Source: Thermococcus argininiproducens (GTDB lineage: Archaea; Methanobacteriota_B; Thermococci; Thermococcales; Thermococcaceae). Taken from it: a DNA stretch of 64,000 nt. The position numbers and the translations under genes were made by a program. The notes beneath the pieces were generated by a model. That model saw nothing but the letters and a program-made list of their open reading frames with translations. It did no database searches and was not told where the DNA came from. The stretch is from positions 496,001 through 560,000 of the forward strand of contig NZ_CP080572.1 in NCBI RefSeq assembly GCF_023746595.1. The letters run 5' to 3'. Shown here one piece after another: positions 10,456-32,015 of this stretch. Numbering within the stretch: the stretch's first letter is position 1; each line of letters begins with the position of its first letter.

Positions 10456-12276
10456 CTATCCACCAGGAACAATTTTAGGATTTCCATCGTTCCAATCTAC
10501 AAAAATTGGCTTTTCTGAAATATAATCTAGATCCTTAAGTATTTCAACACCTGCCTTTGTTCCCCACCTATCTGAGCCAGCCACTAGAATATAGATTTTC
10601 CCATCTATCACTGTTGCCTCAATGACTCCTTTTCCTTTTCCAGGATACTCATTTGTAACTTCCACTGGAAAATTATCCATGTAATCTCTAGTCAACTTAT
10701 TGGCCACAGGCCCCCCAATTAATACTACTATTTCGGATTCAGTACAGTGTGCGGGAACTCTATCGGAACACATTTTCCTCCAGAATGTCCATGCATACTC
10801 TTTGTCGACTCTTCCTTCCCCATAAATTACTGGAGAAGCACGAATCCTAGACACATCTAATTTATCTCCAACCTTAAGAGAGATGGGAGTACTTGTGAGG
10901 AGGGAAATTGGAGTCACTGTGAGTTCACTATTCTCTCCATACAAAATCAAGGAAAAGCTCTTATCATAGTTGCTCGAGTTGAATATTAGTGTTGGGGGTT
11001 TCATATTAACTATGGAGGAAGAATAAACCGAATTTCCTTCAGGATCCTTTATCTCAATTGAATAGTTCTTATAAGCATTGTAGAACATCCCTTCCTTTAG
11101 AATAATTGGATACCTACGCTTAACAATTGAATCATGCCATTTAAGTCCAAACATGAAGTTGAGAGTATTTGGGAATATGGTTACATTACCATCAATCCTT
11201 ATTTCTTGAGTTGTTTCAGTTTCTTTGTAGATACTAACCCACCCAGTTATTGTGACGTGATCAAATGTTATTGAGCCTTTGAAGTCTTTTATTTCAAGCC
11301 AAGATATTTCTGAGTCTTTTATAAGTACTGTAGAATTCGTATCCTGTGCTGTAAGAGCAATATGGGCAAGTTTAGACCCTTGGAGTGTAACCTTGGTGTT
11401 GGAAAGTATGTTCACATCCCATTCAAGGATCCTTGAATTTTCAAGTCTTAAAAACCAAGCTCCTTCATGAGTTAGGTCAATGGTGTAGTTTTCATAAAAC
11501 CCAGGGTTTAAACTCATGCTAACTTCAATACCCTCCAAACGTGGAGTAAATGTCCCAACAGTAGAATTCACGAGGTAAATGTTGGGAAAGTCCCTTATCT
11601 CAATAGTACCCACATACGAATCTTTGATAATGACCTCAGCATCTTTTTGGATCCACATCCATGCTCCAGAGATCGTAGAATTGTGAATGTTTACCGTGTA
11701 TTTCTCAGAAACTATTGACGCACTTCCAAGTTTAAATCCCTCATAGAGATTCGTAACATTTACTTTTCCAACTAACCAAGAATAAAGAGCAAATTCTGAA
11801 TTTTTAATAGTTACCTGGGCCCCAGACAAGTAAGAGGTCACTTCTAATCCATCAAAGATTGAATCAACGATTTCAAGAATCGGACGACCACTAGATAATG
11901 AAATAATGGGAGCTTTCTTGGTGAATGATAACCCCACAAAACTCCCTTTTGAATTACTGTGGAATCTAATGTAGAATTGGTAGTCCGATGTAATTATGGA
12001 GTTCTCTACTATTAGTTGAGAGTTATCTTTAATAATAATCCCATAGTGGGCGTGATAATCCTGAAGGAGCTCGAGAGTGGCATTTTTAATTATTAGTTTT
12101 CCACCATTCTGTACTATTATGTTGCCCTCTTGAAGAAGTGTAGAATCTTCTATTTTATATTCTGTGCCATCTATGATCAAAGTTCCACTATGAAATGATC
12201 CAGCACTAACAGGAGGAACTAAAAAGAGACTGAAAAATACCAATAAAACGAAAACCAATGCAGTTGAATCTTTCAT
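10456..12276 (-). CDS. Secreted beta-helix protein with S-layer-like C-terminal domain
   Basis: 606-residue exported protein. Signal peptide: short charged start, hydrophobic ALVFVLLVFFSLFLV, then PPVSAG cleavage region. Residues about 30-360 are strand-rich repeats with many N, I and V ladders (for example NGGKLIIKNATLELL), as in right-handed parallel beta-helices (pectate-lyase/carbohydrate-binding type); no catalytic motif is evident. The C-terminal about 130 residues contain VVLIGGPVANKLT and YILVAGSDRWGTKAGV, which resemble the C-terminal module of Thermococcales S-layer proteins. Probably a cell-surface or envelope protein. Monocistronic, with a palindrome (12303) over its promoter. Confidence 0.78.
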   Translation of the reverse strand: MKDSTALVFVLLVFFSLFLVPPVSAGSFHSGTLIIDGTEYKIEDSTLLQEGNIIVQNGGKLIIKNATLELLQDYHAHYGIIIKDNSQLIVENSIITSDYQFYIRFHSNSKGSFVGLSFTKKAPIISLSSGRPILEIVDSIFDGLEVTSYLSGAQVTIKNSEFALYSWLVGKVNVTNLYEGFKLGSASIVSEKYTVNIHNSTISGAWMWIQKDAEVIIKDSYVGTIEIRDFPNIYLVNSTVGTFTPRLEGIEVSMSLNPGFYENYTIDLTHEGAWFLRLENSRILEWDVNILSNTKVTLQGSKLAHIALTAQDTNSTVLIKDSEISWLEIKDFKGSITFDHVTITGWVSIYKETETTQEIRIDGNVTIFPNTLNFMFGLKWHDSIVKRRYPIILKEGMFYNAYKNYSIEIKDPEGNSVYSSSIVNMKPPTLIFNSSNYDKSFSLILYGENSELTVTPISLLTSTPISLKVGDKLDVSRIRASPVIYGEGRVDKEYAWTFWRKMCSDRVPAHCTESEIVVLIGGPVANKLTRDYMDNFPVEVTNEYPGKGKGVIEATVIDGKIYILVAGSDRWGTKAGVEILKDLDYISEKPIFVDWNDGNPKIVPGG

Positions 12277-14343: not shown

Positions 14344-15411
14344 TTAGTCCTCAATACCCTTCTCTGTTATTCTAAAGGCCGCTTCACCTTCAGGCAGATG
14401 AGGGGAATCTATTAGTCTAGCAACCCTCTTTCCAGCTTTTCCTTTTCGTAAATATACCCTGACAGTAGCCGAGTGAGCCAAGATGTGACCACCTATTGGC
14501 CTAGTTGGATCCCCAAAGAAAGCATCGGGCCTTGCTTGTACTTGGTTTGTAACAAATACCGCTATATCATAAAGGTTGGCCAAACGATGAAGATCTGCCA
14601 AATGTTTGGCAAGTTTTTGTTGCCTTTCCGCAAGAGTTCCCCTACCAATATATTCAGATCTAAAGTGGCCAGTTAAAGAATCAACAACAAGAAGCTTAAC
14701 CGGTTTATCTGTAGGCAATTTTTCTTTTATTATCTCCTCAGCCTTCTCTACAAGAAGCATCTGATGGTTCGAGTTGAAGGCCCTTGCAACATAAATATTC
14801 TTTAAGACTTCATCAGGATCCAGCCCTCTATTCTCAGCGATCTGTCTTATTCTTTCAGGCCTAAATGTGTTCTCTGTGTCAATCCAAACAACACTCCCAT
14901 TTAAACCCCCTTCTTCAGGAGGTTTTTGAACAATGACAGCAAGAGTATGGGCTAGTTGAGTTTTTCCTGATCCAAATTCCCCAAATACTTCAGAAACAGC
15001 CTGTGTTTCTATCCCCCCACCCAACAGCTTATCCAGAGACTTGCTTCCTGTTGTTATCTTCCCAACAATTGCTCTTTTTTGAAAATACTCATCAGCACGC
15101 ATAAACGTTCCAATGTTGGCTGCATCTCTTGCAGCTTGAATTATTTTTAATGCTGCACCCTCACTAATACCTGCAAGCTCTTTCAACTCCAATGGTGAAG
15201 CTACTGCTATTGCCTCCAAACTATCATAGCCTGCTTCTCTAAGCTTTTCAGCAGTGGCAGGACCAACTCCAGGAAGATCTTCAAGAGTTTTTATCTTTTT
15301 CTTATTAGATTTTTGAGAAGGCTTCTCAAGTGGCAATTCCTCAAGCCCATCGAGTTCTTCAAACTCTTCAAGTTCTTTAATTTCATTCTCAACCTTTTTC
15401 TTTCTCGCCAT
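14344..15411 (-). CDS. radA: DNA repair and recombination protein RadA
   Basis: Archaeal RecA/Rad51 recombinase that forms filaments on ssDNA for strand exchange. Order of parts: acidic/basic N-terminal tail, helix-hairpin-helix domain ([19 protein letters not shown]), polymerisation motif ([13 protein letters not shown]), Walker A GEFGSGKT, Walker B LLVVDSLT, and the L1/L2 region ending [15 protein letters not shown]. Length 355 from the ATG at 15411, chosen because GGTGAT sits 5-6 nt upstream rather than the GTG at 15420. No intein is present, unlike some relatives. Confidence 0.97.
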
Positions 15412-15565
15412 GCATATCACCCATAAGCGTAATCCTAAATAGTAGTGAATTTAAAGTGCTTATATATTTTTCTCATGCCTTAGAAAAAGTTCAAAGGGGC
15501 CGAAATTACAAAACCAAATATTAGTAAAAGAATAATTGGGAAACTAAAGCATCAGAGGGCTAATC

Positions 15566-15582: not shown

Positions 15583-16584
15583 CTATCTTGTAGACCGAAT
15601 AACTAATAACTTAGCCCCTGGAGGTATCTTTTCATCCAACGGCGGTATAAGGTAAATCTTATCCTTTGCATATCCCAAAAGGAAAAGGCCTCTTGGATAA
15701 AGAGCCTCAAAAGCTTCTCTAAATGTCTTCCCTTCCATTTCTTGCACTTTTATAGAAGTAATATCATAATCCCCAAGAGCTGTCGTTATATCATCTATAA
15801 CATCCACAACTTCTGGTTCAAATATTGAACTGGCCAGTAATCTTCCAGTTAGAGTCCTGCTTGTTATTACCCTATCAGCCCCAGCTTGCTTTAACAAATG
15901 GACACTTTCATGTTTGAGGACCTCAACAAAGACTTTAGCTTTTGAGATCTGTTTTATCATTAAGGTTACAAAAACGGACTCTGAATCATCGTCTAGTGCC
16001 AGAAGAACGTGACTAGCATCTCTAACATTCACCCGTTCTAAAGTTTCCCTATTTGTGAACTCCCCAATTATGACCTCTGTTTCCTCTGGAAGATTTAACC
16101 TCTTTCGTTCATTTTCGTCTGGCAACACCACAATAATCGGCCTGTTCTCAGCTTGCTTGTTCGATATAGCATCCTTAAGTTCCAAAAGTGCACTTTCCAC
16201 ACTCTCTCCCCTACCCATGATAATATAATGATCCTTAAATTTCACTTTGTGCATTCCCATCATCCTCCTTATTGATCCAGACAAAAAATACTCAGCCAAA
16301 ATTGAAACAAAAGCCGTAAAAGTAGCAATTCCAGCAATAGATGCAAATATTGCTATTATTCTCCCCAAAAGCGTGTTTGGAGTCACATCACCATACCCAA
16401 TAGTGGCCATTGTAATAACAGCCCAATAAAGAGCTGTAAAAAAGTTCACATTTTCTGCATACATATATAAAAGGGCCAATATAATTGCAAGTAGAATAAC
16501 AGCGAAGGCTAGTGCAAATATCTTGCTTCTCTTAAGTTTAAACTTTAGTTTTATGAGCCTCCTAACAAGCGGAACCGGTATCAT
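15583..16584 (-). CDS. Two-TM potassium channel with RCK (TrkA) domains
   Basis: MthK-like ligand-gated K+ channel. TM1 at about 22-41, pore helix and selectivity filter TIGYGD (61-66), TM2 at about 72-92, then a cytoplasmic RCK_N domain (DHYIIMGRGESVESALLEL with Rossmann nucleotide-type site) and an RCK_C domain at 265-333. 333 residues matches the family. No ribosome site precedes the ATG at 16584; CTTTTTAATG about 30 nt upstream could be a TATA box for a near-leaderless mRNA. Its promoter adjoins the origin region. Confidence 0.93.
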   Translation of the reverse strand: MIPVPLVRRLIKLKFKLKRSKIFALAFAVILLAIILALLYMYAENVNFFTALYWAVITMATIGYGDVTPNTLLGRIIAIFASIAGIATFTAFVSILAEYFLSGSIRRMMGMHKVKFKDHYIIMGRGESVESALLELKDAISNKQAENRPIIVVLPDENERKRLNLPEETEVIIGEFTNRETLERVNVRDASHVLLALDDDSESVFVTLMIKQISKAKVFVEVLKHESVHLLKQAGADRVITSRTLTGRLLASSIFEPEVVDVIDDITTALGDYDITSIKVQEMEGKTFREAFEALYPRGLFLLGYAKDKIYLIPPLDEKIPPGAKLLVIRSTR

Positions 16585-16626
16585 GACATTTACTATATTT
16601 GTCTAGAACATTAAAAAGATTAGCAC

Positions 16627-16639
16627 CTCCAGTGGAAAT
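16627..16639 (+). promoter_or_regulatory. Mini-ORB
   Basis: CTCCAGTGGAAAT matches the core origin recognition dyad but lacks the G-tract. It is 43 nt upstream of the K+ channel start. Confidence 0.6.
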
Positions 16640-16703
16640 TCTACTCCAAATTGTTGCATTAAGTAGGCCATTACAAATCAACAAAATACATTGGTGTCCA
16701 TAT

Positions 16704-16722
16704 GTTCCAGTGGAAATGAAGG
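16704..16722 (+). promoter_or_regulatory. Mini-ORB
   Basis: GTTCCAGTGGAAATGAAGG is a near-perfect match to the ORB dyad half, without the downstream G-string. Confidence 0.7.
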
Positions 16723-16764
16723 TCTTTTTCGATATCCATATTAACGCTTAACCAAATATCACAT

Positions 16765-16797
16765 CCACCCCCCAGAGTTATATTTCCACTGGAACCC
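16765..16797 (-). promoter_or_regulatory. Origin recognition box (ORB), left, inverted
   Basis: Read on the minus strand: GGGTTCCAGTGGAAATATAA followed by CTCTGGGGGGTGG. It carries both dyad and G-tract and matches the right ORB over about 32 nt with only a few differences. Confidence 0.85.
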
Positions 16798-17043
16798 AGT
16801 TTGAAATAATGGACGGATCTTGTATGCGAATCAAGGATAAAGGCTGCTTATAAAGCTCTTTTTTGTTCGTAAATATGAGTTTGTTCACTCACTTTAATTA
16901 TTGTTTTTAATTTCTCATAGAACTTTACTAATATTTATTAAATTTTCTGAACAATGTTCATAGATAAATATATATACCCCAAAGAATAAAAATAATGGGA
17001 GTGTTTACACCATTTTAATTAAAGTGGATGGTGTTTCCGCACA
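16798..17043. other. AT-rich duplex unwinding candidate between ORBs
   Basis: About 246 nt, strongly AT-rich in its second half (around 16900-16990), bounded by the inverted ORBs. It contains the palindrome TGAACAATGTTCA and, near 17010-17036, ACACCAT...ATGGTGT flanking the near-palindrome CCATTTTAATTAAAGTGG. It is a likely site of initial melting. Confidence 0.6.
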
Positions 17044-17076
17044 GGTTCCAGTGGAAATGAAACTCTGGGGGGTAGG
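17044..17076 (+). promoter_or_regulatory. Origin recognition box (ORB), right
   Basis: GGTTCCAGTGGAAATGAAAC followed by TCTGGGGGGTAGG. The 28-nt segment GCACAGG...AACTCT including the dyad recurs at 17956-17983 without the G-tract. Confidence 0.87.
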
Positions 17077-17102
17077 TCTTCTGTTTACTTGAATGACAAA
17101 AT

Positions 17103-17120
17103 TTAAACAAATTTGTTTAA
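17103..17120. other. Perfect 18-nt palindrome beside the right ORB
   Basis: TTAAACAAATTTGTTTAA is a perfect dyad 27 nt beyond the right ORB. It could be an extra protein-binding site or an operator for the gene starting near 17326. Confidence 0.45.
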
Positions 17121-17325
17121 CAACATGGATATAAATGTACTTTAATGATCACATTTTAATGAACATAAATGTGCATTTTTCTTCCAAGAGAAATCCTCAA
17201 TTGGATACGTCTGCTTCTTTCTATTTGTAAAATTTTTTCATGATTTCTCTTGAGTTTGGGAGTGGGTTTCCATTGGAAGCGTGGACTTAAATACTTCAAG
17301 TGTTCATTTTCATATGGTGGTTCAA

Positions 17326-17922
17326 GTGGAAGTTATTAAGTGGTTGAAAGAAGGACATGATAGTGCGAAGGATATTGTAGATCTCCCATGGAATGTAATG
17401 AAAAAGACAGAGGGCGTGTTCATAGCTGAATATCCTAAGATTCCATTCGTATTGAACGTGGTGATAACAGAAGAGTTTGTTCATTTGATAGTCCCCAGTG
17501 GGGTAGAAACTGTAGCTTTGGACCTGCCCGAGCGGTTAAAAATTTATCACACATTGTTGATTCTCAATGAAAAATTAAATCTTCTTAAGTTCACTATAAG
17601 TGGGATGAATGAAGAAATAATGTTGAGGGTGGATCTTGACAGAAAAACTCTTGGAAAAGCAGAGTTTAATGACGCCCTAACAGCTCTCCTCATAGGTTTG
17701 AATCAACTAATATTGGCTTTGGGTTTGGAAGAGGAATTTGCTCGTGCAGTGTTTGAGAGGATTGCTTTGATGGTTATGGATCGTCTGGAAAAAGGCATGA
17801 AAAAAGATGAAATTTTGAAATTCTTAATTGTCAAAGTTGGGATGGATACTAAAGATGCTGAAGAGTTCTTAAAGAGGATAATTGAAGAAAGAAAACCAAA
17901 GGAGGAAGTTGGTTATCTTTAA
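17326..17922 (+). CDS. Uncharacterised protein next to oriC
   Basis: About 198 residues, not recognised. The first half is beta-rich (GVFIAEYPKIPFVLNVVIT, then EEFVHLIVPSGVETV) and the second half helical, with an amphipathic stretch near ALLIGLNQLILALGLE and a charged C-terminus; overall it recalls chaperone-like/YbjN-type folds but without sequence proof. No signal or clear TM helix. The frame opens at GTG 17281. An ATG at 17314 has no ribosome site, whereas GGTGG (17316-17320) precedes GTG 17326, which I prefer; a TATA-like CTTAAATAC lies at 17285. It ends 1 nt before the convergent PIN gene stop. Confidence 0.75.
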   Translation: MEVIKWLKEGHDSAKDIVDLPWNVMKKTEGVFIAEYPKIPFVLNVVITEEFVHLIVPSGVETVALDLPERLKIYHTLLILNEKLNLLKFTISGMNEEIMLRVDLDRKTLGKAEFNDALTALLIGLNQLILALGLEEEFARAVFERIALMVMDRLEKGMKKDEILKFLIVKVGMDTKDAEEFLKRIIEERKPKEEVGYL

Positions 17923-18921
17923 TCATCTCTCAATTTTCAACTCTTCTAATTTTCTGCACAGGTTCCAGTGGAAATGAAACTCTTGATATATGTCTTTCAT
18001 AAATCTTAACTTTAACTCATTAAGTTTTGTTTTTCCTCCAAATTCGCCAAATACTAACACGTTGTTTATCTCAATTACTCCAAAAACTGCTGCCAAGTTA
18101 AACAAAAGCGTTCTCAACTGGTATCCACTTGCATAGTGTTCATTAAGTTCTTCATGTGGGTACTGAAAAAGGAAATACTCAAGCCCCTCCATCCTTGCCA
18201 TGTCTGTCATTGCTATATCTGCAGTTAAGAGGACAACTAGGGAAGGTGTGTTCCTATCAAATTCCTTTAAGGTTTTGATTATTAATTCGTCATTAGTGTT
18301 TGTCTTTTCGTTAATACTCTTGACTTCGATTATCTTGTCTTTGATCTTTTCATACTCTCTTAGAGCAATATAAGTGGCTTTTCGCGATTTCTTCATTCTT
18401 CTGTTGCTAAATTCGTGCAGGAGGTGAGAATTGTGCAAAATCCTCTTAAACTCTCTCAATTGGCCAGGGCTGTATTTAAAATTCATTGCATTTTCTATTT
18501 CCTTTTTCACAAGATCCACTATTGCTATTTGAACCCCTTCTACACCCCTGAACTTAGAAAGGAATGCATGATATAGGAGGTTTGTATCTGGAGCGAAGAT
18601 AATCTTCTTCGTTAAGCTTTTATAAGCTTTTAATTTTTTATCAAATTCATCCATGTTTTCATATGTTATCACTCCACTGGAGATGAAGCATTCATAGAAA
18701 TCCCTATAATTTGGGAGGTCATAAAAGTACCTTTCATTTCCTTTTAAAATATGGTAAAAGTCATTTTCATGTGCGAGAACATTTATCTTGTAACCTTGTT
18801 TGTATGGATAGGCCTCGAGAAGTGGAAGTTCGTATAGGGGTGCCTTCACTTGGATCTTATTGTTTCTCTGGATTAAGTTGATCAAGATTTGTAGTTCAGC
18901 TTTTTCTATAATCTCTTCCAT
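17923..18921 (-). CDS. PIN-domain nuclease-like protein paired with a CARF protein
   Basis: 332 residues. An N-terminal about 105-residue region of unknown fold precedes a PIN-like nuclease domain with candidate acidic metal ligands D112 (FAPDTNLLYHAFL), E141 (DLVKKEIENAM), D211/E212 (TNDELIIKTL) and D235 (LLTADIAMTDMA); the spacing is as in PIN ribonucleases. It overlaps the upstream CARF-domain gene by 16 nt, with GGAGGG as ribosome site, so the two are co-expressed. CARF-nuclease pairs usually sense cyclic oligoadenylate from type III CRISPR systems. The last about 20 codons include an ORB-like sequence (17961), giving the peptide HFHWNLCRK. Confidence 0.8.
   Translation of the reverse strand: MEEIIEKAELQILINLIQRNNKIQVKAPLYELPLLEAYPYKQGYKINVLAHENDFYHILKGNERYFYDLPNYRDFYECFISSGVITYENMDEFDKKLKAYKSLTKKIIFAPDTNLLYHAFLSKFRGVEGVQIAIVDLVKKEIENAMNFKYSPGQLREFKRILHNSHLLHEFSNRRMKKSRKATYIALREYEKIKDKIIEVKSINEKTNTNDELIIKTLKEFDRNTPSLVVLLTADIAMTDMARMEGLEYFLFQYPHEELNEHYASGYQLRTLLFNLAAVFGVIEINNVLVFGEFGGKTKLNELKLRFMKDIYQEFHFHWNLCRKLEELKIER
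17961..17982 (+). promoter_or_regulatory. Mini-ORB inside a coding sequence
   Basis: GGTTCCAGTGGAAATGAAAC plus TC lies in the 3' end of the PIN-like gene, identical over 28 nt (GCACAGG...AACTCT) to the right ORB at 17044 but lacking GGGGGG. Confidence 0.65.
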
Positions 18922-19385
18922 CTTCGGCCCTCCATGAAGTCTTTTAACCTTTGCACATGTAGGGGAATCATCATATATGGCCTGCTAGCATATTCAAGAT
19001 CTCTGAGAGAGAGGTAGAAAAGGTGCTCTACTTCCAGTGGAAGTGCATGGATAGTAGCTCCTGCAACAAGAGCTTTTCTTCCAGAGGTTATATCCATTGC
19101 TATCTCATACTCTTTCTCTTTCAATGTCTTTAAAAGGCTTCCAATCTTCTCATCAGCTTCAAGAAAGTTGTCTTCTTCAATGATTTCCCACTCAATTTTT
19201 GGAGAAAAATCATAAGCTTCTGAGATTATTTTTAAAGCCTCCACAGCCTTTGGAAGATTTTGTTTGTAGGCATTTTCTAGAAAAATGTAAATTTCGTTGG
19301 GTTTGTATCCATTCATAACTGTGGCATAGTAAGCGTTCACCATGGCCCATGTGGATCTTCCAAGCATTGTTATGTATGCTTTCAT
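18906..19385 (-). CDS. CARF-domain protein (CRISPR-associated Rossmann fold)
   Basis: 159-residue stand-alone CARF-like domain. It starts with the typical first strand and loop (MKAYITMLGRSTWAMVNAYY), has strand EIYIFLE, and carries the family signature DITSGRK (98-104; compare DITGGTK) followed by HLFYLSL. CARF domains bind cyclic oligoadenylates and switch on an attached or associated effector. Here the effector would be the overlapping PIN-like nuclease. No Cas10, Cas6 or CRISPR array is visible in the window. Start: ATG 19385 with GAGG just upstream; GTG 19394 lacks a ribosome site. Confidence 0.75.
   Translation of the reverse strand: MKAYITMLGRSTWAMVNAYYATVMNGYKPNEIYIFLENAYKQNLPKAVEALKIISEAYDFSPKIEWEIIEEDNFLEADEKIGSLLKTLKEKEYEIAMDITSGRKALVAGATIHALPLEVEHLFYLSLRDLEYASRPYMMIPLHVQRLKDFMEGRRWKRL
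19031..19045 (+). promoter_or_regulatory. Mini-ORB-like dyad inside CARF gene
   Basis: CTTCCAGTGGAAGTG contains the perfect dyad CTTCCAGTGGAAG. It is the most distal ORB-like match, 2 kb from the core origin, and could be chance. Confidence 0.35.
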
Positions 19386-19395
19386 TCTCCTCACT

Positions 19396-21574: not shown

Positions 21575-21991
21575 ATGAAATACAAACTTGACAGAGGAGC
21601 TCACTCCGTATACTCTCTTCACTATCATCTCATCTTCGTAGTAAAGTACCGTAGAAAAGTTTTTACAAATGATAAAATCATTGACTTCCTCAAACAGAAG
21701 ATTCACGAGATTTCAGAAACTTTTGAAGTTGAAGTTCTTGCAATAGAGTGTGATGCGGATCATGTTCACATTTTGTTCAAAGCAAAGCCAACCCTGAACA
21801 TCCCCAAGTACATCAACGCCCTGAAAACCATAACTTCGAGAGAGATAAGGAGAAAGTTTCCAGAGGTGAAGAAGAAGCTGTGGAAGAACGTCTTCTGGTC
21901 TCCTTCATATTTTCTCGCAACGACTGGACAAGTTACGTTGGATGTTTTGAAGAAGTATGTGGAATCACAAGGTGAGAATGGTGCTGATTAG
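21575..21991 (+). CDS. tnpA: IS200-type TnpA transposase (Y1 HUH)
   Basis: 138-residue HUH single-strand transposase. The HUH motif is CDADHVHILF (H63, H65) and the catalytic tyrosine is Y112 in SPSYFLATTGQVTL. Length is full for the family. Uses hairpin ends to excise and insert the element as ssDNA. Its last codons overlap the start of tnpB. A decayed relative of its C-terminal part is found at 26326-26480. Confidence 0.95.
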   Translation: MKYKLDRGAHSVYSLHYHLIFVVKYRRKVFTNDKIIDFLKQKIHEISETFEVEVLAIECDADHVHILFKAKPTLNIPKYINALKTITSREIRRKFPEVKKKLWKNVFWSPSYFLATTGQVTLDVLKKYVESQGENGAD

Positions 21992-23222
21992 CTACAAATT
22001 CCGCATATATCCCTCAAAGACTATAGAAGCAAAACTAAACGAACAGCTTGAGTTATGTCGCTGGTTGTATAACCGTTTGCTTGAAGAAGTCAACAAAGCT
22101 CGTAGAGAAGGTAGAAAGATAACTTGGAGAGACACTCAAGCTCTTATCGTGAAGATTAAGCAAGAAAAACCAGAGCTGAAGAACGTTTACTCCAAAGTTT
22201 TACAGATGGTGAACCACCAGCTCTGGTCAAACATTAAAGGCTTAAACGAGCTGAGAAAGAAGGGAAAGAAGGTTGGATGGCTTCGTTATAAGACCTCACC
22301 AAACTCATTTAAAACTCTGAATTTCAACCAGAGCGGATTCAGAATTGACTTCAAGAGGAGGAAGTTAGTCCTGTCCAAAGTTGGAGAGATCACGATAGAG
22401 CTTCACCGTCCAATTGAAGGTAAGATTAAGGGTGTAATAATCAAGAGAACCAAACGCGGTAAGTGGTTCGCAATCGTGCAAGCTGAAGTGGAGCCAGAAC
22501 CCCTACCTCCAACGGGGAGAGCTATTGCTATAGACTTGGGAATTCAGAACTTCTGCGTTGATTCTGATGGACTTGCGTTCGAGAATCCAAAGTTCATCGA
22601 TAAAACTCTTGAGAAAATAAAGAGGGTGCAGAAACAGCTATCAAGAAAGCAGAAGGGATCAAAAAGAAGAGAGAAAGTCAGACTTAGGCTGGCTAAACTC
22701 TATGAGAAGCTCGAAAATCAACGCAACGATTTCCTGCATAAACTCTCTCGATATTATGTCAACAACTATGACGTAATTTGCGTGGAAGATCTCGACATTA
22801 GGGATATGGTAGAGAACGGTAACTCCTCAACTCTGAATAGACACATTCACGATTCTGCTTGGTATAAATTCCTCTCACTGCTCGCCTACAAGGCTGAAAG
22901 AGCTGGTAGGTGGGTGCTGAGAATTAAGCCTGCTAACACTTCAAAAAGATGTGCTAGGTGTGGTTATGTCATGGAAAACCTAACCTTGAAGGATAGATGG
23001 TTTGTTTGTCCTATTTGTGGATGGGAGGCGGACAGAGATTACAACGCTTCCCTAAACATCTTAGATGTGGGGCTGGGACGGTCCCGAACGCCCGTGGAGA
23101 GAGAACCTCTACTCCTAATTATTCCCTATCGGAAGGTGATCGAGGGGCAAGTTCTCTCAGTGAAGCGGGAAGCCCCCTTGCGTAAGCGAGGGGGTAGTTC
23201 ACGTTTTCCTACATCTCAATGA
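21978..23222 (+). CDS. tnpB: TnpB RNA-guided nuclease
   Basis: About 414 residues. RuvC-like residues are all present: D186 (AIAIDLGIQNF), E270 (VICVEDLDIRD), D354 (ADRDYNASLN), with the zinc ribbon CARCG...CPICG. TnpB uses an RNA made from the element's right end to cut DNA. Starts at 21957, 21978 or 21981 are possible inside the tnpA end; GGTGAG precedes the last two. The last about 6 codons lie beyond the right-end hairpin in host DNA and overlap the ccdA stop by 14 nt, so the C-terminus was set by the insertion site. Confidence 0.92.
   Translation: MVLISYKFRIYPSKTIEAKLNEQLELCRWLYNRLLEEVNKARREGRKITWRDTQALIVKIKQEKPELKNVYSKVLQMVNHQLWSNIKGLNELRKKGKKVGWLRYKTSPNSFKTLNFNQSGFRIDFKRRKLVLSKVGEITIELHRPIEGKIKGVIIKRTKRGKWFAIVQAEVEPEPLPPTGRAIAIDLGIQNFCVDSDGLAFENPKFIDKTLEKIKRVQKQLSRKQKGSKRREKVRLRLAKLYEKLENQRNDFLHKLSRYYVNNYDVICVEDLDIRDMVENGNSSTLNRHIHDSAWYKFLSLLAYKAERAGRWVLRIKPANTSKRCARCGYVMENLTLKDRWFVCPICGWEADRDYNASLNILDVGLGRSRTPVEREPLLLIIPYRKVIEGQVLSVKREAPLRKRGGSSRFPTSQ
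23173..23194 (+). repeat. IS right-end hairpin (probable guide-RNA scaffold end)
   Basis: A 9-bp stem (one T-G pair) capped by GTAA, within the last codons of tnpB and followed by TAGTTCACG. It is similar in layout to the solo hairpins at 500, 59815 and 60201. Confidence 0.7.
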
Positions 23223-28507: not shown

Positions 28508-29824
28508 ATGAGGAAAAAGGTAAACGCAACAATGCAGGCTAGAAAAGCTTCCCTGCTTAGTCCAAACTCCAAAATGCCTAGGTGGTTTTACTCTTTCATT
28601 CCGTTTAAGGTAGCTACGGGTGGATCTTCTCAAATCATCTCCCTTTATGCACTTCAGCTTGGTGCTGAGGCAGGTGAAATCGGTTTGTTAACTTCTCTGT
28701 CGGCATTTGCATCAACATTGGGGACAGTTTTCTGGGGTAAATTAAGTGATAAGCTTCTTAAAAGGAAGCTTTTTATCTTAATGGGCTTTTTTAGTGTATC
28801 CGTATTCCTCAGCGCTCTTTCACTTGTATCAAACTTTTGGGAATTAATTCTCGTTAATGCTCTTTATTCATTCTTCTTGGCGTCAACAGTCTCTATACCA
28901 ATTGTTTTGCTTTTTAGAAATGTTAGAAAGACAAGATGGGAAGAAGGTGTTGGAAAGTTCAACAAAATTGGGGGTTGGGCGTGGGTAATTGGCCTTTTAC
29001 TGGGGTTTATACTCGTCAGGTTTCTTGCTTTTAGAGAGCTTCTTCTATTATTTGCTCTCTTAAATATTCCTGCGTTCATTATAGCTTGGAAGACTATTAG
29101 AGAAGCACCAGTTTACCTTCATAGGAATAATATCAAACCTCTTGTGAATCAGGTAATTCAAAAGGGAAGATACTTGCCCAACTTCTTAATTCATCTTCCC
29201 ATGAGACTAAAACTCTCGCCAAAATTCAGAGGGTTTTATTTATCTTCTTTCTTATTTTGGGTATCATCTGGAATGTATACCACTCAACTCCCTGTATTTT
29301 TAATAAAAAATGGGTTTACTAGTCAAGAAGTCTTTGGATTGGCTCTCCTAAACTCTTCAACATCAGCAATGCTTTATCAAAGGGTTGGGAAAAAGCTCAG
29401 ATCAAAGAACCCTGTTTTAGGGTTGGTACAGGGGTATTTCTTTAGGGCTCTTGGAATTTTCCTCCTATTAGTACAAATGGACTTTCAATATTCCTTGATG
29501 CTCTCAAGCACTGCAAGTTATCTCCTTTGGGGCTATTCTTGGTCTTACATAAGTGTTTCTTCAACGTCATTTATAGGGAGAAGGAGTAGTACAAAAGAGC
29601 AGGGAAGCATTTTAGCAACTTCTAACTTGGTCAATTCAACTGGATTTATTTTGGGAAGTTTAATCGGTGGTGGTATAGCCTCTCAAATAGGTTTTGACAT
29701 GAATTTTGCTTCAGCCTCTGTGATGGGCTTTCTGGCAATGTTTCCTCTTGTCCCATTGCTTGGAATTTCCCTTAGTACTTCAATTTCAAAAAGACCGATC
29801 CCACAAATTAGAAAAAGGGATTAG
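28508..29824 (+). CDS. Major facilitator superfamily transporter
   Basis: 438 residues, about 12 TM helices. The MFS signature between TM2 and TM3 is GKLSDKLLKRKLF. Ribosome site GGTGG is 7 nt before the ATG; CTTTATAAAG (about 28460) is a good TATA box. Substrate unknown. It ends convergently with the helicase gene, overlapping by 4 nt. Confidence 0.88.
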   Translation: MRKKVNATMQARKASLLSPNSKMPRWFYSFIPFKVATGGSSQIISLYALQLGAEAGEIGLLTSLSAFASTLGTVFWGKLSDKLLKRKLFILMGFFSVSVFLSALSLVSNFWELILVNALYSFFLASTVSIPIVLLFRNVRKTRWEEGVGKFNKIGGWAWVIGLLLGFILVRFLAFRELLLLFALLNIPAFIIAWKTIREAPVYLHRNNIKPLVNQVIQKGRYLPNFLIHLPMRLKLSPKFRGFYLSSFLFWVSSGMYTTQLPVFLIKNGFTSQEVFGLALLNSSTSAMLYQRVGKKLRSKNPVLGLVQGYFFRALGIFLLLVQMDFQYSLMLSSTASYLLWGYSWSYISVSSTSFIGRRSSTKEQGSILATSNLVNSTGFILGSLIGGGIASQIGFDMNFASASVMGFLAMFPLVPLLGISLSTSISKRPIPQIRKRD

Positions 29825-31794
29825 TGTATTTCCATGTTTCTTAGTCTTATGGATCTTCCATATCTTTTTACAAACTCTATGAAGCGTTTGTAAGTATCAT
29901 GCTCTTTTAGAGTTTCACTGTCTCCAATGGCAATAAGCTTTCTCTTTGCTCTTGTTATAGAAACATTTAATCTTCTTAAATCCGTCAAGAACCCGAGTTC
30001 ATGATTTTTATTGGATCGAACAAAAGATAGGATTATAACTTCCTTTTCTCTCCCTTGATATCCATCCACTGTGTGGATCTCTATGTCTTCATCTTCGATA
30101 AGAGAGCGTATTAAGTCAACTTGGTCATCATAGGGCGTTATAACTCCAATCCAATTCTTTTTAATACCTATTCGAAGAAGTCTTTCGACAATCTCCTTAA
30201 CTAAAAGGGCCTCTAGGGGGTTCTCTCTTGAAGTTGAACCTTTTCTCTGTCTTTCCCATTTGTCTGTTCTATCACTGGTATCTACAAAGACAAGGGGCTC
30301 TTCTCTTTTTAATATTGAATCCCAGGGTTCGCCAAAGAAGGGTTCTCTAACCTTTAAATCGGCCAGCGTTATATCTTTTACGCTCTCATCGGCCTTTATC
30401 CTCCCCTTGTAGAACTCTCTGCTTGGAAATTCCATTAAAAGTTGATTCATTCGGTATTGGACTTCAAGCATTCTCGCCTTGGATGGATATAAACTTATGA
30501 GCTTTTCAAAAAGGGTCTCACTCAGCTCTTTGGCTTCTTCACTCAAAATTGTTGGGGGAAGTTGTTTGTGGTCTCCAGCAAGAATAAATCGCTTGGCCTT
30601 TGCAATTGGGATTAAAACACTTGGGATCGTTGCTTGGGAAGCTTCATCTATGATGACAACGTCAAATTCAACATCTTTTATGAATTCAAGGGCTGAGGAG
30701 GAGTTTGTACTCAGAACAACGTCCACATCTTCGATTATCTCCCGTATTATCTCACTTTCAATCTTTTCTGCAAATTTATAGAGCTTCTGAATTTGCTCGT
30801 TTAGTGTTATCCATTGGGCCATCTGCCTAACATCCTTAGCTGGAACACCTCTGGTTCCTCTGCCTCTCTCTGCCAACTTAAGTATTTGTTTATTGGTTAA
30901 TCCTCTCCTCATTTGTGGTGTGGGTTTTTTATATTGATCTCTCATCATTGCAAGCCTTTCTGCTTTATTTCTCAGTTCTCTAACCCTTCTATATCGCTCA
31001 TGGGATTCGACTTGAAAGGCGAGTGTTGATTCCTTTAGGTGGACTGAGACTCTTGAAGGGTGGCCCAACCTGACGAGTTTAACTTTCCCCCAAAGCCTTT
31101 CTACAAGATTATCAACGGCTACATTGCTTTCGGCCGTTGCAAGAACTTTGCTTCCTCTCTTGACCTCCTGTATAATGAGTTCTACTAAAGTTCTTGTTTT
31201 ACCGGTACCAAAGGGCCCGTGGATTAGAAAGAAATCATCGCTTCCTAAGGCGTAGCTTACGGCCTCCTTTTGACTCTGGTTTAAGTTCCTGTCAAAAGGT
31301 GTAAACTCTTCAGGAAAACTTTTTAATGGGGCTTCTTGGCCCAGAATAAGCTTTAAGGCCCTAATACCACTTTCACTCAGTTTTTTAAGATTCTCGAGCT
31401 GTCTTCTGAAGGTTACATCGTTAGCGTAGAGGTCTATTCTAACGTTTTTAAAAGCCCAAGAGGGCACAGCTTCGACGGCTACCACAATAAATCTGCTTCC
31501 TTTTTCTACAACAGTACCAACAAGATCACTCGCTAGTGGATTTCCCTTGCTTATTACAATCAGGTCCCCAACTCCAATTTCAGTTTTAAATGGCTCTTTC
31601 CTTCCATACTTTACAAGTTTGAAGCCAAATTCTTCACCAATTACTTTCCCGTTGAGATTTAAAATCGCTCTACCAACTTTCTCTCTTTCATATCCCTTAA
31701 GTCTTCGCATTTCTTCTCGCATGGCCTCTATTTCGGCCTCTCTTTCAAGCTCCACAAGATCAACGAGTTTAGCAATGTAAGTTTTAACGTGCAT
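29821..31794 (-). CDS. SF1 helicase, IGHMBP2/UPF1-like
   Basis: 657-residue superfamily 1B DNA/RNA helicase. An N-terminal beta-barrel accessory region is followed by Walker A GPFGTGKTRT, Walker B VVIIDEASQAT, motif III AGDHKQLPPT, QYRMN (motif IV region), and VDGYQGREKEVIILSFVRSN plus LNVSITRAKRKL (motifs V and VI). The open frame continues upstream through two tRNA genes, which cannot be coding; the ATG at 31794 (MHVKTYIAKL) with GTGAT upstream is the true start. Confidence 0.92.
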   Translation of the reverse strand: MHVKTYIAKLVDLVELEREAEIEAMREEMRRLKGYEREKVGRAILNLNGKVIGEEFGFKLVKYGRKEPFKTEIGVGDLIVISKGNPLASDLVGTVVEKGSRFIVVAVEAVPSWAFKNVRIDLYANDVTFRRQLENLKKLSESGIRALKLILGQEAPLKSFPEEFTPFDRNLNQSQKEAVSYALGSDDFFLIHGPFGTGKTRTLVELIIQEVKRGSKVLATAESNVAVDNLVERLWGKVKLVRLGHPSRVSVHLKESTLAFQVESHERYRRVRELRNKAERLAMMRDQYKKPTPQMRRGLTNKQILKLAERGRGTRGVPAKDVRQMAQWITLNEQIQKLYKFAEKIESEIIREIIEDVDVVLSTNSSSALEFIKDVEFDVVIIDEASQATIPSVLIPIAKAKRFILAGDHKQLPPTILSEEAKELSETLFEKLISLYPSKARMLEVQYRMNQLLMEFPSREFYKGRIKADESVKDITLADLKVREPFFGEPWDSILKREEPLVFVDTSDRTDKWERQRKGSTSRENPLEALLVKEIVERLLRIGIKKNWIGVITPYDDQVDLIRSLIEDEDIEIHTVDGYQGREKEVIILSFVRSNKNHELGFLTDLRRLNVSITRAKRKLIAIGDSETLKEHDTYKRFIEFVKRYGRSIRLRNMEIH

Positions 31795-31853
31795 AGTTAT
31801 CACTGGGTTTTTGTGTATAAAAAGCTCTCGAAACGTTTCCTTAGAAGAGTTTT

Positions 31854-31931
31854 TGGTGGGCCCGCGGGGCTTCGAACCCCGGACCTCCCGCTTATCAGGC
31901 GGGCGCTCTGACCAGGCTGAGCCACGGGCCC
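31854..31931 (-). tRNA. tRNA-Ile (GAT)
   Basis: 78 nt including encoded CCA. Acceptor GGGCCCG/CGGGCCC, D arm GCTC...GAGC, anticodon loop CTGATAA with GAT, T arm CCGGGGTTCGAAGCCCCG. It lies 6 nt downstream of tRNA-Glu, so the pair is transcribed together. Confidence 0.96.
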
Positions 31932-31937
31932 GCTTTC

Positions 31938-32015
31938 TGGTGCCCCGGCCGGGATTTGAACCCGGGTCGCGGGATCGAGAGTCCCGCATGATTGACCGGG
32001 CTACACCACCGGGGC
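31938..32015 (-). tRNA. tRNA-Glu (CTC)
   Basis: 78 nt including encoded CCA. Acceptor GCCCCGG/CCGGGGC, anticodon stem GCGGGA/TCCCGC with loop CTCTCGA (anticodon CTC), T arm CCCGGGTTCAAATCCCGG. First gene of a two-tRNA unit. Confidence 0.95.

Follow-up and report, generated by a model that had tools for sequence, protein, structure and literature searches.

The oriC of P. abyssi and P. furiosus is a single origin marked by a skew minimum; it consists of two inverted ORBs with G-tracts ∼280 bp apart, mini-ORBs and an AT-rich core, and is located directly upstream of the cdc6-polD genes. The oriC of T. kodakarensis and T. barophilus also contains ORBs and mini-ORBs, with radA close on the left and cdc6-polD to the right; in T. 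barophilus, a homologue of ORF17314 (Table 1) is present on the right side as well. The cdc6-linked origins of haloarchaea and Sulfolobus are of similar build, with Orc1/Cdc6-recognised ORBs around an AT-rich unwinding element. These organisms have several origins, each adjoining its own initiator gene. Linkage between origin and initiator has been treated as an archaeal rule and as a possible control device, acting through timed cdc6 transcription after firing; in haloarchaea, cis linkage is not needed for plasmid ARS activity (PMC4010727).

The window, which is the whole 64-kb stretch of DNA analyzed here, contains an intergenic region that shares the ORBs, G-tracts, mini-ORBs, AT-rich core and skew minimum of the P. 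abyssi and P. furiosus origins. Different from these, its left neighbour is a K+ channel gene and cdc6 is 511 kb off. Compared to T. kodakarensis and T. barophilus, the radA gene, the ORBs and the mini-ORBs are alike, whereas in the present genus (g1) PIN and CARF genes take the place of cdc6-polD on the right. Unlike the origins of haloarchaea and Sulfolobus, this origin is single and unlinked. With a probability of about 0.92, the site is the single chromosomal oriC, an inversion put cdc6 511 kb away, and the mini-ORBs in the flanking genes act in cis as components of oriC. The origin itself is of a known kind; its unlinking and the turnover of its boxes are new, and earlier origin tables (Cossu 2015; Cortez 2010 Table S1) may already show the separation in T. 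litoralis or T. sibiricus.

The position of the origin and its bidirectionality follow from sequence and skew. Skews were fitted over 79 evenly spaced 10-kb stretches plus the window, which together represent 44% of the chromosome. With origin and terminus both free, the best two-step fit placed the origin at 510 kb, alike for GC, AT and keto skew (R2 of 0.65 for keto), and the terminus at 1.40-1.51 Mb; when the terminus was fixed opposite the origin, the latter was placed at 512.5 kb. Compared to this fitted range of 510-512.5 kb, the ORBs are at 512.77-513.07 kb of the chromosome. The keto skew is much cleaner than the GC or purine skew, the latter giving no useful fit over the sampled stretches. 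In the window, the cumulative GC and keto skews reach their lowest points at 16797 and 16798, at the inner edge of ORB1; the preliminary description had let its proposal of an origin depend on a skew minimum here, and the minimum is found at the site. The sign and shape of the skew are those of a bidirectional origin. For genome G078, which we take to be T. sibiricus, the best skew origin (40 stretches plus two loci) is at 1785 kb and the ORB pair at 1783.6-1783.9 kb.

We found one sole perfect dif-like inverted repeat in the genome (G000:C1:1286356-1286375), 120-200 kb from the skew terminus. It is 143 degrees from oriC and 122 degrees from cdc6. The dif-oriC angle in other Thermococcales has been published as 122-142 degrees, to which 143 degrees is close; the two angles found here do not allow the site to discriminate between the origin candidates.

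ORBs were searched in the whole genome with a 25-base pattern allowing up to 3 mismatches, the reversed pattern serving as the control. In the 1,946,248-base genome, just two sites match the full ORB pattern with 0-1 mismatch, both at oriC, and the reversed pattern has none. The 11-bp dyad TTCCANTGGAA has 10 copies in the genome, compared to ∼2.3 expected, and seven of the 10 fall within one 8.4-kb stretch around oriC (P ∼3e-15). Taken together, the uniqueness of the full ORBs, the empty control and the clustering of the dyad indicate that the ORB cluster is not due to chance. A two-copy origin was ruled out, since the genome has no second full ORB pair. ORB1 and ORB2, which were aligned across 10 genomes of the genus, are spaced by 279 bp, leaving ∼250 nt between the elements. 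Two inverted, outward-facing elements with six Gs each had been described before, and both are present, the earlier positions being off by a few bases at most. They had also been said to share a dyad. This holds for the dyads, which are identical, whereas over their full length the elements show two differences (ATATAAC versus ATGAAAC). In the T. litoralis-like group (G075, G076, G077 and G080; L140, L138, L129 and L134), the ORB2 dyad is broken (CCACAGGAA) and the G-tract is intact; the two ORBs are therefore no longer equivalent in this group.

The stretch between the ORBs is 71% AT, at the 99.8th percentile of the window, and includes the 100 bp with the lowest stability in the whole window by a nearest-neighbour scan (predicted unwinding element in Table 1), in agreement with the AT-rich DNA noted between the elements before. 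The palindrome and TATA-like element in this core are also present in sampled g2, g4, g5 and g6 genomes, which belong to other genera, and were not found in three sampled Pyrococcus; from its sequence, the combination looks like a regulated promoter within oriC, directed toward ORF17314. The two mini-ORBs previously seen to the left of the ORBs are real, the one at 16705 exact and the one at 16627 degenerate. To these, we add boxes at 17268, 17963 and 19032 on the right and at 10660 on the far left. An ORB-like dyad is located directly upstream of the TATA box of both the K+ channel gene and ORF17314; at the latter, TTCCNNTGGAA is present in all 10 aligned genomes.

Table 1. Features of the oriC region (window coordinates)
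Feature	Position	Strand	Basis or remark
radA recombinase gene	14344-15420	minus	Pfam Rad51
K+ channel gene (Ion_trans_2 + TrkA_N), ancestral left neighbour of oriC	15583-16584	minus	Pfam
oriC intergenic region, K+ channel gene to ORF17314	16585-17313		ORB pair, skew minimum, AT-rich core
Outlying mini-ORB dyad within ORF 10456-12276	10655-10670	minus	also present in near relative G079
Degenerate mini-ORB CTCCAGTGGAAA	16627-16642	plus	just upstream of K+ channel promoter
Exact mini-ORB TTCCAGTGGAAATGAA	16705-16720	plus	conserved in 10 aligned genomes
ORB1, full ORB, six-G tract toward left (outward)	16768-16794	minus	TTCCAGTGGAAATATAACTCTGGGGGG
Predicted unwinding element	16895-16994		nearest-neighbour stability scan
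Palindrome TGAACAATGTTCA then TATA-like TATATATA, toward ORF17314, in inter-ORB core	16948-16977	plus	invariant in 10 genus genomes
ORB2, full ORB, six-G tract toward right (outward)	17046-17072	plus	TTCCAGTGGAAATGAAACTCTGGGGGG
ORB-like dyad TTCCATTGGAA	17268-17278	plus	directly upstream of ORF17314 TATA box (17286-17294)
ORF17314, uncharacterised, ancestral right neighbour	17314-17922	plus	gene order
Putative inversion junction, 3' ends of ORF17314 and PIN gene	17900-17930		ancestral cdc6-polD place
PIN-domain gene, probably moved to oriC by inversion	17923-18921	minus	Pfam PIN_4; ancestral site beside TIP49
Mini-ORB in 3' end of PIN gene, probably gained after inversion	17963-17978	plus	10/10 genus vs 0/10 other genera
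CARF-like gene, probably moved to oriC by inversion	18906-19394	minus	weak Csa3_N match, below cut-off
Mini-ORB in CARF-like gene, probably gained after inversion	19032-19047	plus	10/10 genus vs 0/10 other genera

The ORB pattern has matches in 84 of the 94 family genomes, in six of six genera. Spacing, orientation and G-tracts are common to the ORB pairs of all six, in support of the Orc1/Cdc6-type origin layout ascribed to this site before. Among 49 inverted pairs from the six genera, the spacing ranges from 277 to 300 bp and is most often 279 bp. The family spacings fall into groups of 279-281, 290-292 and 298-300 bp, which are separated by roughly one helical turn; values of 282-288 also occur. 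The ORB search placed a pair at 1,672.9-1,673.2 kb in G086, which we take to be T. barophilus, and one match at 1,711.4 kb in G024, assigned to T. kodakarensis from the coordinate match itself; G004, presumably P. abyssi, has its pair at 123 kb. The marker-frequency peaks are at 1,671 kb in T. barophilus and 1,712 kb in T. kodakarensis (PMC11005403). Given the assumed species identities, the positions found by the ORB search agree with the replication peaks measured in both species.

Among the features of a Thermococcales oriC, the ORB pair, the skew switch, the AT-rich core and the intergenic location near radA (1.3 kb to the left) are all found here; proximity to orc1/cdc6 is not. Such closeness is a usual feature in the definition of Thermococcales oriC (PMC11005403); it is a description of gene order and no functional requirement. 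As cdc6 is not nearby, we file this oriC as a variant arrangement, homologous by its ORBs, core and left flank.

The orc1/cdc6 gene is at C1:1.8-3.0 kb, 511 kb from the ORBs. It is single copy, as the genome has one Cdc6_C match (C1:2.7 kb), and its product has 2qby (Cdc6-1 chain) and 2v1u as best PDB matches. The gene is intact, with TIP49 before it and both PolD subunit genes after it, the PolD and TIP49 identities coming from reading of the translations. In five other genera, cdc6 is ∼1.5-4 kb from the ORBs wherever both are on one contig; in the present genus, the ORBs are far from cdc6 or on another contig in 10 of the 10 genomes showing both. ORB-like dyads are located upstream of orc1/cdc6 (L048 1595-1620 and 1735-1750); their offsets are fixed both in the genus and in Pyrococcus. 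They are degenerate, two being present in most of the genus and one in all 12 genomes; one is beside a TATA-like sequence, and the one nearest the start overlaps the ribosome-binding site. This arrangement weakly points to a possible regulation of orc1/cdc6 by its own product, acting in trans.

The rearrangement was deduced from the gene order of 94 genomes. Genomes of g5 and g6, and many of g2 and g4, have the K+ channel gene followed by the two ORBs, ORF17314, cdc6 and polD, the channel gene being absent in some; the channel gene adjoins the ORBs in most of g1, g2, g4 and g5. Elsewhere in g5, g6 and some g4 genomes, TIP49 and PIN-CARF face each other. In g1, K+ channel, ORB, ORB and ORF17314 are followed by PIN and CARF in the opposite orientation, and the other junction reads TIP49, cdc6 and polD, with TIP49 beside cdc6 in 12 of 12 assessable genomes. 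A single inversion, of the cdc6-to-PIN segment, accounts for both new junctions. Judged by gene order, one inversion with breakpoints at ORF17314/cdc6 and TIP49/PIN is the event that split oriC from cdc6 in every assessable genome of the genus. In one draft genome (G084, L137), TIP49 is split by an in-frame stop, possibly a sequencing error.

The genes moved by this event differ in their boxes. DP1 beside oriC has internal boxes in 14 of 14 sampled genomes; DP1 moved away, in g1, has boxes in none of seven, the best 11-mer having at least 2 mismatches, although the gene is still in the same operon. In all 10 g1 genomes, PIN and CARF each have a box at a fixed place, which in a few of the genomes has one mismatch; the 10 homologues from other genera have none. 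Residues are changed by both: with the PIN box TTCCACTGG, the Leu of all ten other-genus copies becomes Trp in g1, and with the CARF box CCACTGGAA, a residue that is mostly Lys elsewhere becomes Glu. ORB2 and the 17963 box share a 27-28-bp identity (GCACAGGTTCCAGTGGAAATGAAACTCT). Duplication of ORB2 during the inversion was set aside as the source of this box, since the codons show gain by point changes; the box may still have arisen, or been tidied, through conversion from ORB2. Because all g1 genomes share one inversion and are not independent, the evidence consists of three genes moving as predicted after one event, not of dozens of cases. The loss from DP1 and the gain in PIN and CARF indicate that the boxes act like parts of the origin in cis, and we infer that both resulted from selection for Orc1 binding in the vicinity of oriC. 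It is probable that, after the genus-wide uncoupling, the origin rebuilt satellite Orc1 boxes in the adjoining genes at amino-acid cost while the departed DP1 lost its own, and that origin function reaches ∼2-3 kb into coding sequence, selected by position and not by gene identity. In the literature searched, we found no earlier report of such gain or loss.

A reading of the PIN, CARF and DP1 boxes as gene-specific regulation or protein constraint, such as a special role of DP1 at initiation, appears unlikely. ORBs and mini-ORBs inside DP1 of four Thermococcales were noted in 2008 and taken as a hint of DP1 acting at initiation (PMC2643942), and Orc1 may be a gene regulator (PMC5333045); however, DP1 away from oriC lost every box in an unchanged operon, and unrelated genes arriving at oriC gained boxes at the expense of their residues. 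Somewhat less likely still is a conserved but largely inactive oriC, with replication relying mainly on recombination and the skew left over from past use. Both T. kodakarensis and T. barophilus can grow in the absence of oriC or Cdc6, and deletion of radA was not achieved (PMC5663688, PMC11005403); oriC may for that reason be little used here in log phase, and by analogy its use may depend on growth phase. However, both the sharp skew minimum, which agrees with ORB1 at the base level, and the boxes newly gained since the inversion speak for ongoing selection on the origin.

It is very improbable that the true origin is upstream of orc1/cdc6 (C1:1.6 kb), with the ORB cluster of the window being a relic or a regulatory site. 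Archaeal origins usually adjoin cdc6 (PMC4010727, PMC5333045), and the degenerate dyads described above would fit such a location. The whole-genome search, however, found no full ORB near cdc6, and the keto skew keeps its negative sign across that gene and switches only at the ORB site; likewise, G078 has no skew switch at cdc6. Moreover, the core and the ORB pair, including the distance between the ORBs, are conserved throughout the genus. A second origin at cdc6 was rejected on the same two grounds, no full ORB and no skew switch.

With the ORB site as the single oriC, initiation can be outlined by analogy to Pyrococcus, where the binding and loading steps have been worked out (reviewed in PMC4010727, PMC5333045). 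The inversion would have carried the cdc6-polD operon away, leaving the initiator to act in trans: Orc1/Cdc6, made 511 kb away, would bind ORB1, ORB2 and the satellite mini-ORBs, the AT-rich core between the ORBs would melt, and MCM would be loaded, with two forks departing in opposite directions. DP1 would have lost its boxes after departure, and PIN and CARF would have gained theirs on arrival. A whole genus without linkage between origin and cdc6 makes possible a direct test of whether this linkage matters. The box gain and loss assigns the mini-ORBs inside DP1 to the origin and not to DP1, and marks coding stretches beside the origin where selection at the DNA level overrides the protein sequence. 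Origin prediction, or the setting of chromosome position 1, by cdc6 alone would fail in the present genus.

Two other features of the window were observed. An IS200/IS605-type transposase pair, TnpA and TnpB as judged from the translations, is located at 21575-23222. In the helicase ORF at 29821-31989, the N-terminal part (RSRDPGSNPGRGTRKRARG...) resembles a translated RNA gene, and the real start is probably further in.
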